A stretch of DNA of 64,000 bases from Myxococcales bacterium (GTDB lineage: Bacteria; Myxococcota_A; Polyangia; JAAYKL01). This document shows, in pieces, positions 48,643 through 63,616 of this stretch. How positions within the stretch are numbered: position 1 is the first letter of the stretch; each line of letters begins with the position of its first letter. The DNA is taken from positions 1 through 64,000 of the forward strand of contig JAAYKL010000015.1 of the NCBI GenBank assembly GCA_012522445.1, written 5' to 3'. The notes under the pieces were generated by a model that did no database searches, had not been told where the DNA came from, and was given only the letters and a program-made list of their open reading frames with translations. The position numbers were made by a program, and so were the translations under genes.

Positions 48643-50562
48643 TCAGTTGCCAAATGGGTTGTCAGCCAGACCGCGGGGTTTCTTTTTGACAGGCGCCTTG
48701 GGCTTGGCGGCTGGTGCCTTTACCGGTGCGGGTTTGGGTGCCGCAACGGGCTTTTCCACTTTGGGCTCGGGCGCCGGGGGCGTTGGCACCTCTTCGGAGG
48801 CGGGGAGTGTCTCGGCCGTATCTTCCGGTGCGGTCGTTTCGGTATCTCGGGCAGATTTTGGCTCGGTGTCGGAATCGCCCGCCGAGTCGGATGTTGCCAC
48901 CGAATCGGATGCCTCGGATGCCGCGGCAGTATCGACCTTGGCGCTGTCTTGCGGCGCGGGGGTCGGTGTCGTTGGAGCATCCCCGTCAGGCAAAGGCGTG
49001 GATTCTCCAGCAGGGGTTACGTCGGTGTCGTCGGGCTTTCCGGTGGCGCAGCGATAAACGCCGATGGCCAGGGCGCTCCACAACAACAGCCCGAGGATGC
49101 CAGCAATTAATAGCTTGGGAGAAAATGTCTTGGTGGTGGTCGGAGCGCTGCCCACCGGTGGTGGGGGAGGGCCCGGTGGAGACGTCATGGACACCGACTC
49201 GAGATCATCGGTGTCGATGTTCACCGTGGTGGAATGCCGCGCTGCGGAATCGGCGCCCGCGGCGGCTGCGCTGTCAATGGTTTGCAGCGAGATCTCGGTG
49301 GTGTGCAAGTCGGCAAACAGGGGATCGGATGCTGGCGCCAGGGAAGATGTCACCTCAACTCGCTCAATTGGGGGCGGCGGCGGCGGCGTTACCGGGGTGG
49401 CCGGAGGGGCTTGTGTCGGTGCGGCCGGAGGCGTTGTTGCCGGGGGGGCCGGAGGCGTTGTTGCCGGGGGGGCTTGTGCCGGTGCGGCCGGGGGCGCTTG
49501 TGCCGGTGCGGCCGGGGGCAATACCGCTGGCGCACCAAATACCGTCTTGGCGGTGGCGGGAACGGCTGCGGGTTGTGCTGGGGTGGCGGAAGCCGCAGAC
49601 GCTGGTGCCGATGCCGATGCAACATCTACCATAGGGGGAGATGCCTGGGCTTGCGGTGTGGCCGCTGTTGGCGTTGCCGCTTTGGTGGCGGGCGCTGTTG
49701 CGGGTGCCGCTGCAGATGTCTGCGGAGCGGCCTTGGCATCTCCTGCGGCTGCCCATTGTTGCATTTCGGTTGCCGCCGCCTCGACAGAGGGCCAGCGCGC
49801 AGCGGGATCCCCTGTGAGCGCGCGCCGAACAAACGCCACAACTTCGGGGGGATAACCGGTCAACACCGGAAAATCGGGTTGCGCCTGGATAATTTTTTGC
49901 ACGACTTCATCGTTGTTGCGGCCGACAAAGGCGCGGCGACCGTAAAGCATCTCGTACATAATGATGCCCACGGCCCACTGATCGGATTGGGGGGACAGCG
50001 CTGGCGTGGCGCCCAGTTGTTCGGGGGCGCGGTAATAATCGCGCGCAGGCACTCGGCTGGCGTCATCTAGCGGAACGGTCAACAACCGTGCCTGCAACTT
50101 GTTTTCGGCGGTCTCGCCCACGGCGATCATCTCGGGCATCACCTGCCCCCAGGGCTGTCCTGCGACGTGCATGGCGTGAAGCCCCTGCAGCAGCGGGGTG
50201 AGAATTGCGACCATTTTGTCGATGGGAGGGCGTCGGTTTTTTTGCATCCATTCCCGGAGGCTCACCAAGCGCACCACTTCGGGGAAATGAAATACCGCAA
50301 AACGCGGAATGGCGCCGGGATCGGCGACGAACTCCAGCGGTGTCAAACACGGATGGTCGGGCAACGCCACCGTGGAACCCAGCACCACCGTGGAACCGAA
50401 AATGCGGACAAACAGCGCCTGGCCCGTTTCTTTATCGGTGCATTCGTAATAGCCCCCAAAAGAATCTTGGCACAGCAAGTTGCCGGTTTCAAAGCGACCG
50501 GCCATCACTTTTCCGGAGTACAATCCTCGGCTGGCTTTTTTAAATGATATGGTTGCAGTCAT
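48643..50562 (-). CDS. Membrane pseudokinase with long Ala/Pro linker
   Basis: 639 residues. Residues 20-275 have the protein-kinase fold but not its catalytic residues. The ATP-binding Lys is replaced by Arg53 (ALFVRIFG); HRDxKxxN is replaced by the PWGQVMPEMI stretch (137-146), so no catalytic Asp or metal-binding Asn; DFG is missing (LLTVPLDD at 160-167). The activation-segment end (YYRAPEQL, 177-183) and SDQWAVGIIMYEMLYGRRAF, which hold the fold, are kept. A 200-residue Ala/Pro/Thr region follows, then a membrane helix at about 495-517 (LLIAGILGLLLWSALAIGVY) and a Ser/Asp/Pro-rich exterior part ending KKKPRGLADNPFGN. Probably a scaffold. Promoter overlaps that of the OmpR-type gene. Confidence 0.82.
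   Translation of the reverse strand: MTATISFKKASRGLYSGKVMAGRFETGNLLCQDSFGGYYECTDKETGQALFVRIFGSTVVLGSTVALPDHPCLTPLEFVADPGAIPRFAVFHFPEVVRLVSLREWMQKNRRPPIDKMVAILTPLLQGLHAMHVAGQPWGQVMPEMIAVGETAENKLQARLLTVPLDDASRVPARDYYRAPEQLGATPALSPQSDQWAVGIIMYEMLYGRRAFVGRNNDEVVQKIIQAQPDFPVLTGYPPEVVAFVRRALTGDPAARWPSVEAAATEMQQWAAAGDAKAAPQTSAAAPATAPATKAATPTAATPQAQASPPMVDVASASAPASAASATPAQPAAVPATAKTVFGAPAVLPPAAPAQAPPAAPAQAPPATTPPAPPATTPPAAPTQAPPATPVTPPPPPPIERVEVTSSLAPASDPLFADLHTTEISLQTIDSAAAAGADSAARHSTTVNIDTDDLESVSMTSPPGPPPPPVGSAPTTTKTFSPKLLIAGILGLLLWSALAIGVYRCATGKPDDTDVTPAGESTPLPDGDAPTTPTPAPQDSAKVDTAAASEASDSVATSDSAGDSDTEPKSARDTETTAPEDTAETLPASEEVPTPPAPEPKVEKPVAAPKPAPVKAPAAKPKAPVKKKPRGLADNPFGN
49390..49520 (-). repeat. 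Repeats coding for PPAAPAQAPPA units in the pseudokinase
   Basis: Imperfect tandem repeats of about 24 bases (plus sense GGTGCGGCCGGGGGC core) in the linker. They encode alternating PPA/APAQA units and could be unstable. Confidence 0.7.
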
Positions 50563-51500: not shown

Positions 51501-51507
51501 CAGGCCT

Positions 51508-52065
51508 ATGGTTGAATCCGTCATCATCAATTGCTTCATTATTTTTTTCGCCCGCATCGCCGACGTCTCGCTGGGAACCCTGCGCACTCTTTCCATGGTG
51601 CGCGGCGACACGGTGCGCTCTTGGTTCCTCGGCTTTTTCGAGGTCCTCATCTGGATCGCCGTTATCTCACAAATCATCGATTCCGTCCGAGACACCCCCT
51701 TGTACGCCCTTTTTTACGCCTCTGGGTTTGCCACCGGGACTGCCGTGGGCATCAAAATAGAGCGGCGGCTGGCCATTGGCGAACGCGTTGTGATGCTCTT
51801 TACGCGCAAAGGCGAGCAAATCGCGAAGCACTTGAGACAAAATGGATTCCCGGTCACGGAGTTCGAAGCCCGCGGGCAGGAAGGCAAAATCTCCCATCTG
51901 TTCATCAAGACCCAGCGCAAGGATGTGCAAGGCGTCGTGGCCATGGCCAACGAGCTGGACCCCGATTGCTTCGTCGTGGTGGAGCAAGTCGAGACCCTGT
52001 CGCGCATCAATCCGGTGTTGTCGCCGCGCACTGGGTGGCGTACCCAAGGGCGAAAATTCAAGTAA
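51508..52065 (+). CDS. UPF0316/DUF2179-type membrane protein
   Basis: 185 residues. Three membrane helices (about 5-17, 35-55, 63-80) with the family pattern INCFIIFFARIADVSLGTLRTLSMVRG, then EVLIWIAVISQII and ALFYASGFATGTAVGIKIERRLAIG. The C-terminal soluble domain (DUF2179, about 90-180) has VVMLFTRKGEQIAKHLRQNGFPVTEFEARGQEG. DUF2179 domains are found in YitT-type proteins and may bind nucleotides or cyclic dinucleotides; this is not settled. Next to an OmpR regulator and the pseudo-peptidase/barrel gene, five bases ahead. Confidence 0.82.
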   Translation: MVESVIINCFIIFFARIADVSLGTLRTLSMVRGDTVRSWFLGFFEVLIWIAVISQIIDSVRDTPLYALFYASGFATGTAVGIKIERRLAIGERVVMLFTRKGEQIAKHLRQNGFPVTEFEARGQEGKISHLFIKTQRKDVQGVVAMANELDPDCFVVVEQVETLSRINPVLSPRTGWRTQGRKFK

Positions 52066-52069
52066 TCCC

Positions 52070-54925
52070 ATGCGGCATGTGTGGCACTGGCGCAGAGGCG
52101 GCCCATGGCTAGTGGTGCTCGCTTTATGGCTGTTCGCGTCGCCATCCGGAGCGCAGGCCACACCCCCTGTGCGCAACACTGTCGTCCTGGACGCCGCCTT
52201 TGACAAAGCGCAAAAACACCTGCGCGGCACCGCCCAATGGACCATCACCAACGACACCGGCACCACCCTGCACCAGCTCCCCTTTTGGCTCTACCCCAAC
52301 CGCTTGGCCCACCCTGGCGCTGGCCTCGCCGACTGCGAAGCCCCGTGGATCTACCCGCAGGGCAACAGCCGCGGCCGCATGGACATCACGGACTTCGACA
52401 ACGGCGAACAACGCGACACGCCATCTCCGGGGTTGCGCTACGATGCCATGCCGGTACCGGGCACGCCCCGCAACGCCGAACGCATGATTGTCTACGTACC
52501 CCTCGCCGACCCCCTGGCGCCCGGTGCCCAAGCCGAGATCACCTTGCACTTCACCACCGAGATCCCCGTGCGTCGCGCGCGCTTCGGCCGCTTTCGCGGT
52601 GCGGTGACCCTGGCGGACGGCTGGTATCCGCGCCCTCTGACCGACCTCACCGGGCGTGCCACCGCGCTGCCGCCGGCACCCATCGACGCCCAGGTCTCTG
52701 TTCGGCTCCCCCCCAAGACTGCGGGGCTCTTGGTCGACATCATTCACGAGGCCCAGGCGAACCCCCAAACCCTCGCCGCACAGTTCACCGACATCGATGA
52801 ACTGCTGCTCGCAACTTCCTCTCGCGGCCACCGGCACACCGAGACAACCGCGGGCATTCGTTGGGCGTTTTTCAGCGCGACCCATTTACCACGCGAACCC
52901 AACCCCGACGAGCCCGCGCCGGAAACAACCCGCCGCGCCCCGGATGTGGCATCGCCGTCCCATGGGGTGCGCAACATCGGCCGCACCGATCGCTTGACCC
53001 GCATACGCACGACCCTGCACAGCGCTGTGGACGCCCTGCGCGACTTAGCCCCCACCTTGCCCTTGCCGCGATCGCTGACCATTGTCGAAGCCCCGTTGCG
53101 CGATCGCCTCGTCCAACGCAGCGGCGACGTGCTGTTGGTGTCCGACCACCTCTATCAATTGGCCCCTTTCGAACCGCTCCTGCGGCGACATGATGCCGCC
53201 CTCGCAACGGAGCTGCTGACCGCCCTCGTGTATCCCGCGCTGCGCCGCACCGAATCCCCCGTGGATGCCGCGCTCTTTGCCGAGGTGATCGCCGATGTGG
53301 CCCTGCGACAACACCTGAAAAAGTCGCAACAGCCGATTCACTCCCTGCAGCGCACCCTGGGATTTGCCGCCTTTGTGCCCTTTGTCGATAGCTTGCTCTA
53401 CGCGCCGCAAATCCCGTTTGAGGGAACCTACAGCCACCAGCGCGAAGTGCCAGATCCGCTACGCGATGCGGTCAACCGCTTCATGAACACCCTGCCAAAC
53501 GGACGGCGCATCGCCGCCAAGTACGAGGACATTTTGGGCGACGAAGCGGTGGTCAACGGCCTGGGCCTGTGCTTGGCCGCAAAAGTCTCGTGCGCAGAAA
53601 CGCTGGATGGTGCCCTGGGTGACTTTCGCAAAACATTTCGCGCCCAGTGGTTTGGCCCGCATCCCGTGGTGGCCTATCGCATTGCCGAGACCGCGCAGAC
53701 ACCGCAGCCGAACGAGGGCTTTCTCCACCGCATCACCGTGGAGCGCCTCGGCGACGACATCGCCGAACCGGTCACCGTGCGCCTAATCGACAAAACCGGG
53801 GCACAGACGGAATTGCAGTGGGCGGGCGAAGGCCAACGCGGCACCGTAACGTGGATCTCCCCGGGGCCCTTGCGCCGCGCCGTGCTCGATCCCAACGAGC
53901 GATTGCACGAAACCCCAAGCTTGACGAGTGGGCATCCGCGCGCCGACAACGACACCGCATTGCCCCTGCGGCCACCGCTCCTGACGCGCCTCTTGCTGTG
54001 GTTCGACAGCGTCGCACTGGACCCCACCATCGACGTGGCCTTCGCGCTGCGGCGCAAGTACGACATCGCACAAGCCTGGCATTTGTCCGCTACCTACTCG
54101 CCGCGCACCATCGGCGGCAACCTCAGCTATCTGCGCTACTTCGGCGCCAAGTCCACCCTCAACGACAAGACCGCCTGGGCGGGTCCCGAGCTCTCCTTGC
54201 GCTACCACCGACCGGTAGACGCCGGCGACATCGGCGCGCTCCATCCCTCACCCGGCGCTTGGGTGACCACCTGGGGCGTTGCGGCGGGCACCAACACCCG
54301 CCAGTACTTTTTCGACCCCCAAAAAGGCCGCGCCATCCACGCCTGGCTCGGGTGGGGGGCCGGGCGCTTCGACGACGGACAGCGCGTCCTGTACGGTCAA
54401 ACCTCGCTGCGCTTTGCGCGCGTCATCAGCCCCGCCATCGGACACACACTGGCCGCCACCGCGGGCATCGACGCCCTCACCGGAACCGTGCCCCACGCCA
54501 GCTTGATCACTTTGTCGCATCGCGCCGCCCTGCGCGGTTTTGATGTCCACGAAATTTACGGCCGCGCCGCTGCCTTTGCCGTCCTCGAATACCGCCACAC
54601 GCTCCTCTCCCGCACCGCCATCTCCATGCCCCTACGCACCCGCCTCGACCGCTTGCAAGGCGTCGCGTTTGCCGCTGCGGGCACCGCCAGCCACCCCACA
54701 GATTACGCGGGACTCTTCGCCAGCGATCGCATCTTCGCTGAAGCGGGGTATGGCCTACGCCTGCACTGGCTGCTGTTTGGCGCCCTGCCGTACTTGATGG
54801 CCGTGGACGTCGCCGTGCCCTTCTGGCCCCATGATCGCAGCTTCGTCGTCGCAACCGAAAACGGCGACAAGCGACATCATCGCGCGCCCGTCCGCTGGGT
54901 TTTTGGCGTCACACAGGCCTTTTGA
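52070..54925 (+). CDS. Pseudo-M1 peptidase fused to an outer-membrane beta-barrel
   Basis: 951 residues with a signal peptide (cleavage about SGAQATPP). Residues 30-215 look like the beta-sandwich N-domain of M1 aminopeptidases (LDAAFDKAQKHLRGTAQWTITNDTG, LHQLPFWLYPNRL). Between 290 and 460 is a helical region like a gluzincin core, but the zinc motif HExxH is replaced: ATELLTALVY at about 377-386, with FAEVIADVALRQHL where the second Glu helix would be. The final 310 residues are beta strands ending with aromatic residues (LSYLRYFG, GPELSLRYHRP, FAVLEYRHTLL) and finish in VRWVFGVTQAF, with a terminal Phe as in outer-membrane barrels. I read it as a dead peptidase used as a binding domain on a barrel. 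No such fusion is known to me. Confidence 0.72.
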   Translation: MRHVWHWRRGGPWLVVLALWLFASPSGAQATPPVRNTVVLDAAFDKAQKHLRGTAQWTITNDTGTTLHQLPFWLYPNRLAHPGAGLADCEAPWIYPQGNSRGRMDITDFDNGEQRDTPSPGLRYDAMPVPGTPRNAERMIVYVPLADPLAPGAQAEITLHFTTEIPVRRARFGRFRGAVTLADGWYPRPLTDLTGRATALPPAPIDAQVSVRLPPKTAGLLVDIIHEAQANPQTLAAQFTDIDELLLATSSRGHRHTETTAGIRWAFFSATHLPREPNPDEPAPETTRRAPDVASPSHGVRNIGRTDRLTRIRTTLHSAVDALRDLAPTLPLPRSLTIVEAPLRDRLVQRSGDVLLVSDHLYQLAPFEPLLRRHDAALATELLTALVYPALRRTESPVDAALFAEVIADVALRQHLKKSQQPIHSLQRTLGFAAFVPFVDSLLYAPQIPFEGTYSHQREVPDPLRDAVNRFMNTLPNGRRIAAKYEDILGDEAVVNGLGLCLAAKVSCAETLDGALGDFRKTFRAQWFGPHPVVAYRIAETAQTPQPNEGFLHRITVERLGDDIAEPVTVRLIDKTGAQTELQWAGEGQRGTVTWISPGPLRRAVLDPNERLHETPSLTSGHPRADNDTALPLRPPLLTRLLLWFDSVALDPTIDVAFALRRKYDIAQAWHLSATYSPRTIGGNLSYLRYFGAKSTLNDKTAWAGPELSLRYHRPVDAGDIGALHPSPGAWVTTWGVAAGTNTRQYFFDPQKGRAIHAWLGWGAGRFDDGQRVLYGQTSLRFARVISPAIGHTLAATAGIDALTGTVPHASLITLSHRAALRGFDVHEIYGRAAAFAVLEYRHTLLSRTAISMPLRTRLDRLQGVAFAAAGTASHPTDYAGLFASDRIFAEAGYGLRLHWLLFGALPYLMAVDVAVPFWPHDRSFVVATENGDKRHHRAPVRWVFGVTQAF

Positions 54926-61207: not shown

Positions 61208-63616
61208 ATGGGCATTGCTATCGGCATCGATCTCGGAACCACCAACTCCTGCGTCGCCGTCGTCCAAGGCAACCAAGCCAAAATCATCGAAGACGTCGCC
61301 GGGCACCGCATCCATCCATCGGTCATCTCCTTTCATCCCAACGGCGAGACCCTGGTGGGACACACCGCGCGCGACCGCCTGGTCATCGACCCCGCCAACA
61401 CCATTTATTCGTTTAAGCGCCTCATTGGCCGCGACCTGGGCACCCAGGAGATGCAAGAGCTCATCGCGAGCTTCCCCTTTGAGGTCATCGACAAAAACCG
61501 CATCCCGGTGCTCAAGACGCGCCAGCGCGAGACCACCCTGCCCGAGGTGAGCGCCATCATGCTCAAGTCCCTGCGCAGCATGTGCAAGGAGACCTACGGC
61601 ATCGACATCAACGAGTGCATCATCACGGTGCCCGCCAACTTCACCGACGTGCAGCGCGCCTCCACCAAGATCGCCGGGCGCATCGCGGGCTTCAACGTGC
61701 TGCGCATCCTCAACGAGCCCACCGCTGCGGCCTTGGCCTATGGCTTTGGCGCCGAACGAGAAGAGCGCATCGCCATTTACGACTTCGGCGGCGGCACCTT
61801 TGACATCACCATCATCTCGCTGATGGGCGATGTCTTCGAAGTGTTGGCCACGGCTGGCGACACCTTCTTGGGCGGCGACGACTTCGATGCCAAAATCGTC
61901 AAAGATATGCTCATGCAGTTCAAAAAAGAGCACGGCTTCGATCCCAGCGACGACCCCGTGGCCATGCAGCGCCTGCGCTCCGTTGCCGAGCGCGCCAAGT
62001 GCCAGCTCTCTACCATCAACGAAGTCCAGGCCACCTTGCGCGAACTTGCCCGTGACAAAAAAGGCCAGCTCATCGACTTTTCATTTTCCATGACCCGCGA
62101 GCGCTTCGACCAACTCATCCACTCTCTCATCGAACGCAGCCTCGCCACCTGCGAAGAGGCGCTGAGCATCGCCAAGCTCTCGGTTCACGACCTCGACAAC
62201 ATCGTCATGGTGGGCGGCACCACCCGGATTCCCCGCATTCGCCAAGAGGTCGAATCGTTTTTCAAAAAGAAACCGCGCACCGAGATCAACCCCGACGAGG
62301 TGGTGGCCATCGGCGCTGCCATCAACGCCTTCTCCCTCACCGGCGAGCCCCTGCCCGAACACCTGAAACCCGCGACGCGCCAATCCACTGTCGACCCCTT
62401 CTCCCGGCGCTCGCTAAAGCCCGACGTCACACCCCCCGCCGCCGTCTCAGAGCGCGCGGTCTCCCCATTTCGCTCAGCGCCCAAAATTGCCCCTGCGTCG
62501 GCCGCCTCCCTGCCCGCTGCCGACGACCCCTTCGCCGATCTGCCCGCGCCCAAAGAAGCCAAACTCGACGCACCCTTCGCCGAGGATAGCGCGCCGATAT
62601 TCTCCGATCCATTTGCCGAAAAACGCCATGCGCCGCCGGCACCACCACTCAAAAAAGACACCCCGCCCACCACCTCGCCCTCTCCCGAAGAGGACGACAC
62701 CTGGGGCGATTTGCCCGCACCCATGCCCCCACCGCCCAAGGCCAGCGACGACCCATTTGGCTTGGACAGCGATCTACCCATACCCGTGCCCCGGGACCCG
62801 GCCGCCGACGATTTCGACGCCGGGCTGAGACCCACAGCAACCCACGCCCCGGCGGAAACCCACACCGAAGAAATCACCGATCTCGAAGAGTTCGAGGAGA
62901 TCGAAGAAATCGAAGAAATCACGGACAACGGCGACGCCCTGGACGCACCATCCCACGGCGCCTTCGACGACTTTGGCAGCCTCGATTTCCCCGTGGCACC
63001 ACCCGCGGCCGAACGCGCCAGCGCCACAACGCCGGACAGCATGCAGGGCTTGCCGCCCGTACTCCGCGCCGATCCCATGCCCACCGCTGCTGCACTGGAG
63101 CCAGACCTGCTCAAGCCCCTCGATCAAGTGGTGGGCGAAGATGGCAAAGAAGCTGTCCCCGAACAGCACGAAGCCTTTGTGGTGCCGATCAAACAAACCG
63201 CTCCGGCGGTATTGCTCGACGTCACCCCACGCGCCCTCGGCGTGGCCACGGCGGGCGGCTATTGCGACATCATCATCGAGCGCAACGCGGCCATCCCCAT
63301 CGAGCAATCGCGCACCTTCACCACGTCGCGCAACGACCAAACCGAGGTCACCATCGAGGTTTATCAGGGCGAATCGCGCAAAACCGAGGAGAACACCCTG
63401 CTGGGCAAAATCTACCTCACCGACATCCGCCCGGCGCTGCGCGGCGAAATTACCATCCGCGTCACCTTCGAAATCGACACCGACGGCATCCTCAATGTCG
63501 ATGCTGTCAACGAAGAGAGCGGCATGGCCCAATCCACGAGCATTCAAATCTCCGGCGGATTGGATGAAGCGCAAATCGATTCCCTCGTGAAGAAGTACTC
63601 CGACAATGACGAATAG
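61208..63616 (+). CDS. Hsp70-like chaperone without a lid and with a roughly 275-residue acidic linker
   Basis: 802 residues, GGAG before ATG. The ATPase domain (1-380) is complete: [40 protein letters not shown]. From about 382 to 655 there is a low-complexity insertion rich in Pro, Asp, Ala and Glu with DPFADLP/DPFGLD units and a run of EEIEEIEEI. The substrate-binding beta domain then appears (about 655-790), opening [22 protein letters not shown], the normal linker motif. The helical lid of about 100 residues is absent: it ends [18 protein letters not shown]. So it could not close over clients as DnaK does. Its stop overlaps a J-domain gene by 11 bases. Myxococcus SglK is a known Hsp70 variant for motility; a tie is speculation. 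Confidence 0.85.

Follow-up and report, generated by a model that had tools for sequence, protein, structure and literature searches.

A putative M1 pseudopeptidase joined to an Omp85-type barrel in Myxococcota

Overview

The protein encoded at 52070-54925 of the window (the whole stretch of 64,000 nucleotides analysed here) joins two parts: residues 34-612 form a three-domain body of the M1 aminopeptidase type, and the C-terminal barrel is of the Omp85 type. The defining feature of the Omp85 superfamily is the homologous membrane barrel (PMC4104836), and by this feature, which the protein has, it belongs to the superfamily, while its body is, judging by the aligned residues, a non-peptidase M1 homologue and not an active M1 peptidase. 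Fusions of this kind are, as far as their sequences tell, conserved across Myxococcota and make up an apparently undescribed family.

The gene and the parts of its product

The open reading frame is by homology a real gene, because full-length homologues exist. Its translation reads as first described, with a signal peptide (MRHVWHWRRGGPWLVVLALWLFASPSGAQA), an M1-type N-domain, a helical region, a run of amphipathic strands and a last residue Phe. Searches with the single sequence were nearly empty: the Pfam scan of the 951 residues gave no match, the NCBIfam scan only a weak one (Omp85_fam, E 0.025), and phmmer against PDB sequences nothing useful, so that the protein comes without ready annotation. 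The predicted structures are AlphaFold models built from 30 sequences, the full-length one with pLDDT 84.6 and pTM 0.81. The parts are as follows.

52070-54925, + strand: pseudo-M1-Omp85 open reading frame, encoding 951 aa
52070..52159, + strand: signal peptide, residues 1-30, likely cleaved between AQA and TP (read from the sequence; hydrophobic helix 11-23 in the model)
52169..52879, + strand: M1-type N-terminal beta domain, residues 34-270 (M1-only HMM, hhalign, structure match)
52892..52981, + strand: poorly ordered linker, residues 275-304 (pLDDT <50 over most of it)
52982..53659, + strand: pseudo-catalytic helical domain, residues 305-530 (hhalign, Foldseek, VIA)
53189..53203, + strand: degenerate zinc motif H374-D-A-A-L378, the HExxH equivalent (hhalign, column counts)
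53282..53284, + strand: E405, in the column of the third zinc ligand, Glu (hhalign; acidic in most homologues)
53372..53431, + strand: residues 435-454, where conservation within the pseudo-catalytic domain is highest, F-x-P-x-x-D-x-L-x-Y-A-P-Q-x-x-F-x-x-x-Y
53669..53905, + strand: M1 domain III-like beta sandwich, residues 534-612 (matched here by active M1s through the family HMM; hhalign)
53906..53977, + strand: linker leading to the barrel, residues 613-636, conserved as GHPxxDNxxLPxRPP (homologue conservation)
53978..54922, + strand: Omp85-type beta barrel, residues 637-951, with C-terminal Phe (14 strands predicted)
54530..54553, + strand: loop-6 LRGF and the following conserved Glu, residues 821-828 (conservation; aligned with RGF of PF01103 proteins)

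An M1 body with a lost active site

The family profile, which was built without any true M1, was aligned by hhalign with a profile of 11 active M1s of the same phylum at a probability of 99.7 (E=1.1e-26, 526 columns), spanning residues 34-635 of the query. Active M1s of the phylum match the family HMM with E down to 5.6e-28 over the N-domain (about model positions 20-250) and domain III (about 470-600), and their HExxH falls between these two matches, as expected; an M1-only HMM in turn matches the window protein at E 2.4e-16 in the N-domain and domain III. With the predicted structure, the best Foldseek matches were all M1 (IRAP, ERAP1, PfA-M1 and tricorn F3, E about 1e-14), and VIA gave Z of 19-22 to M1 peptidases, with 21.8 over 431 aligned residues for tricorn F3. 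N-domain, catalytic-domain fold and domain III follow each other in order, residues 305-530 occupying the position of the M1 thermolysin-like domain, and the fold search and the profile homology agree in bearing out the M1-type fold of the original prediction. The protein shares the N-domain, the position of the catalytic domain and domain III with M1 aminopeptidases (PF01433; PepN, ERAP1, tricorn F3, LTA4H and active M1s of the same phylum such as L100 and L103), while it differs from them in its added barrel, in a spacing of the two zinc helices that is longer by about 8 residues, and in having no PF01433 match and no HExxH, GAMEN or catalytic Tyr.

The profile alignment pairs H374-D375 with the His-Glu of HExxH, and E405 with the third ligand of the zinc, so the HExxH-x18-E site of active M1 enzymes is replaced by H374-D-A-A-L378 ... 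E405. Among 30 aligned homologues, position 374 is His in 29 and position 405 is Asp or Glu in 26, while position 375 is variable (D 14, R 8, Q 3, E 3, H 1, G 1) and position 378 holds only Leu, Val, Ile or Ala, the second zinc His being lost from all 30, in line with the missing zinc site of the original prediction. HExxH is absent from the zinc-site position of every homologue examined, and at T380, the alternative place for the second His in the hhalign register, no conserved His is found among the aligned homologues. The original prediction had placed ATELLTALVY where HExxH should be; the zinc site is indeed incomplete, but its true equivalent is H374-D375-A-A-L378 with the first His retained, and ATELLTALVY (379-388) continues this helix, one or two turns downstream. 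An HEEDH in L012 and L038 was also considered as a zinc site and was rejected, being unconserved, limited to one lineage and some 130 residues downstream of the zinc helix.

Other catalytic motifs are missing as well. The stretch aligned with the exopeptidase motif GAMEN reads RLVQRSGDVLLVSD, GAMEN itself being replaced by LVQRSGDVLLVSD, and the family consensus at this position is LAxxxPGxVLVSDR. The Tyr of the M1-set VYxRTA aligns with the Tyr-free query stretch NTLPNGRR, in a gapped alignment of moderate certainty. With zinc ligands, GAMEN and catalytic Tyr lost, the M1 active site is, as judged from these alignments, dead. The strongest constraint in the pseudo-catalytic domain is found in region 425-490, where residues 435-454 are nearly invariant and D440, Y444 and D487 are invariant among the aligned homologues.

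An Omp85-type barrel

Whether modelled within the full-length chain or alone, residues 637-951 fold as a barrel; the barrel-only model has pLDDT 88.3 and pTM 0.84. Compared with BamA and TamA, the predicted structure has VIA Z of 20-22, and the barrel alone gives Z 22.2 for BamA (268 aligned) and 20.1 for TamA, with Sam50 also matched; together with the terminal Phe, these fold matches agree with the outer-membrane barrel proposed before. Profile searches narrow it to the Omp85 type specifically: hhalign of the barrel profile with six PF01103 Omp85 proteins gave E=2.3e-15, and of nine weaker barrel-profile matches that were scanned with Pfam, eight were PF01103 proteins, including a ShlB/FhaC protein and a POTRA protein. 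PF01103 itself is weakly detected by Pfam in 3 of 30 family members and not in the query. The Omp85 loop-6 motif, (V/L/M)RG(F/Y), is present as LRGF at 821-824, with R822 invariant, Phe or Tyr at 824 in 29/30 and E828 in 29/30. The protein resembles BamA and TamA in the fold of its barrel, the RGF of loop 6, the C-terminal motif and the last Phe; unlike it, they carry POTRA repeats, and they have 16 strands against the 14 predicted here.

Both AlphaFold models place nine strands before loop 6 and five after it, with one loop hairpin, counted as 14, which suggests a barrel of 14 strands rather than 16. From the barrel start to the FPTRG motif there are 160 residues in the genome's own BamA and 111 here, whereas the other stretches are similar (74 and 73 for the next, 139 and 131 for the last), so that the barrel of the studied protein is short by about 49 residues on the N-side of the FDPxxG motif. 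This shorter N-side spacing would fit the loss of two N-terminal strands, and in the models such an apparent loss suggests a lateral seam unlike that of BamA.

No POTRA (PF07244) is found at the studied locus, while it is found at C79 and C71 of the same genome. Because PF07244 is absent and residues 34-612 are M1-like, the protein is by domain content not a POTRA-Omp85. The genome, which is 88% complete, also encodes a BamA with five POTRA domains and another POTRA-Omp85; since it has this BamA of its own, the fusion protein is an additional Omp85. Neither TamB nor an M1 enzyme was found in this 88% complete genome. A pairing of the fusion with an active M1 partner was also considered and rejected, there being no PF01433 match in the own genome and in several other carriers (incomplete MAGs), and the active M1 (HEMMHHWWG) encoded next to the L032 homologue belongs to a different M1 type and was taken as coincidence.

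Comparison with known systems

In the survey of Heinz and Lithgow 2014, ten bacterial Omp85 subfamilies were recognized, none with an M1-like module (PMC4104836). WD40-Omp85, Metallo-Omp85 (PF00149) and noNterm resemble the window protein in joining an Omp85 barrel to a non-POTRA N-terminus, although they carry a propeller, a PF00149 domain and no module, respectively, and in no case an M1-like one (PMC4104836). Neither an M1-Omp85 fusion nor a 14-strand Omp85 is described in the titles and abstracts searched, a set that leaves subscription papers outside, and the original statement that no such fusion had been described thus stands against both this literature and the Omp85 survey (PMC4104836). 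PlpD has an enzyme-fold N-domain on an Omp85 barrel, with the domain in the periplasm (PMC11116518), as is proposed here, but the domain is a patatin lipase rather than a dead M1, and PlpD is classed with POTRA-bearing Omp85 proteins. Bacterial M1 pseudopeptidases would be added by the window family to a class so far known mainly from eukaryotes. TAF2, for instance, is an M1 homologue with a binding role, and it is eukaryotic, soluble and barrel-free. The M1 fold also serves for binding rather than, or besides, cutting in the yeast protein Tma108 (PMC11266112), which is likewise eukaryotic, soluble and barrel-free and, unlike the window protein, keeps nearly all active-site residues.

Topology and possible function

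In Omp85 barrels, the N- and C-termini are both periplasmic. PlpD, an Omp85 protein with an enzyme-like (patatin) N-domain, keeps this domain in the periplasm (PMC11116518). The original prediction of a surface protein is therefore not followed, as Omp85 topology, the even number of predicted strands and the periplasmic domain of PlpD (PMC11116518) all point to the periplasm. From the even strand count and the periplasmic N-terminus we infer that the M1-like body would lie in the periplasm, under the barrel.

Active M1 enzymes hold an extended peptide by its N-terminus and backbone. Moreover, the M1 homologue Tma108 was reported to bind nascent chains through its substrate pocket (PMC11266112). 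By analogy, the dead M1-like body may stand in the place of POTRA and hold client chains for an assembly or translocation barrel, a reading to which we give a little less than an even chance. The catalytically dead M1 body would then have replaced the usual periplasmic POTRA repeats, its former substrate cleft would hold client chains that are unfolded or extended, or their N-terminal peptides, and leave them uncut, and the body would, in the manner of POTRA, hand them to the barrel, which would help to insert or export them at the outer membrane. That clients bind in the former cleft is a guess, since conservation peaks at 435-454 and not at the zinc site itself. The fullest form of the proposal, an eleventh Omp85 architecture in which a 14-stranded insertase or translocon uses a dead aminopeptidase to grip clients in the former cleft as a substitute for POTRA, is rather doubtful. 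Omp85 proteins insert and export outer-membrane proteins and have been described as 16-stranded with POTRA domains; if the proposal is true, an unrelated fold that binds peptides can take over the part of POTRA, and the family offers a test, made by nature, of which strands of the barrel are needed for the lateral gate.

The main rival is a role like that of PlpD, in which the M1-like body would likewise be periplasmic but the protein would serve in structure or in lipid homeostasis, perhaps as an oligomer, and would handle no client polypeptide. Such a lipid or scaffold role is unlikely, though still to be taken seriously: PlpD is a homodimer and a plpD- strain has an altered membrane lipid composition (PMC11116518), and the conserved linker and the 435-454 stretch could be protein contacts here. 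The linker speaks against surface display, in which the barrel would export the M1-like domain in the manner of type Vd autotransport for binding of peptides or partners outside, since it is highly conserved and not a variable tether. Against the lipid role, the M1 fold is one that binds peptides rather than lipids. Passenger and barrel do follow each other in one chain, and TpsB and related Omp85 barrels translocate proteins (PMC4104836), but POTRA is wholly absent, the prototype PlpD keeps its domain inside (PMC11116518), and a folded body of about 580 residues is too large to pass such a pore, which makes surface display improbable.

Cryptic catalysis is, like surface display, less likely than the PlpD-like role. 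The retained H374 (His in 29/30) and acidic 405 (26/30), with D440, Y444, D487 and Y454, could form a different metal or catalytic site, and the invariance of D440, Y444 and D487 speaks for it; nevertheless, residue 375 is D, R, Q, E, H or G depending on the homologue, unlike a general base, the second-His column is aliphatic, and GAMEN and the catalytic Tyr are gone, so that a hidden enzyme seems quite improbable. Recent degeneration of a working M1-Omp85 protease would account for the clear M1 homology and has hardly any likelihood, as the motif is kept in no homologue of the sampled phylum and the body is full length and stop-free across many genera.

Distribution and genome context

Of 39 related genomes, 28 have a match; 12 of the 13 other genomes of the taxonomic family are among them, and some of the distant matches are true M1 enzymes that are matched by the N-domain only. 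With the own genome included, 13 of 14 genomes of the taxonomic family have a homologue, most matches there being full length at 36-41% identity, against about 25-30% farther out. Within the phylum sample of 113 genomes, both halves are found in 18 and HExxH at the zinc site in 0, and all 18 strong barrel-profile matches carry the M1-like part. The last residue is Phe or Tyr (FGITQTF, FQQYF) in nearly all complete homologues, with L044, L053 and L058 as exceptions. Homologues named in a scan with one conserved peptide pattern come from MAGs labelled Myxococcota, Deltaproteobacteria, Sandaracinaceae, Polyangiaceae and similar, a single-pattern scan with which members outside Myxococcota are compatible. 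Shorter and very divergent phylum members (L094, L095, L096, L097 and L098) have a reduced N-domain with a matching core and barrel.

The neighbouring genes of the homologues in close relatives are not conserved and hence give no hint of a partner and no operon inference. An operon with the upstream DUF5698 gene and a response regulator was considered and dropped, as neither is kept beside the homologues. The former, at 51502-52065 (+), encodes a DUF5698/UPF0316-like membrane protein and ends 4 bp before the studied gene. In addition, 13 Sandaracinaceae-like loci among L040-L061 have, next to the fusion gene, a gene that was judged by eye to be class II glutamine amidotransferase-like, as at L051:1741-3081 (-). 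Elsewhere in the window, the gene at 48643-50562 (-) encodes a protein kinase-like product (PF00069, E 4.7e-12, residues 95-262) in which VAIK, HRD and DFG are not visible by eye, probably a pseudokinase; it also has a long region rich in Pro and Ala, and a likely TM segment. As well, a DnaK-type ATPase is encoded at 61208-63616 (+), with PF00012 over residues 4-380 and a long acidic, Pro-rich insert before its C-terminal part.
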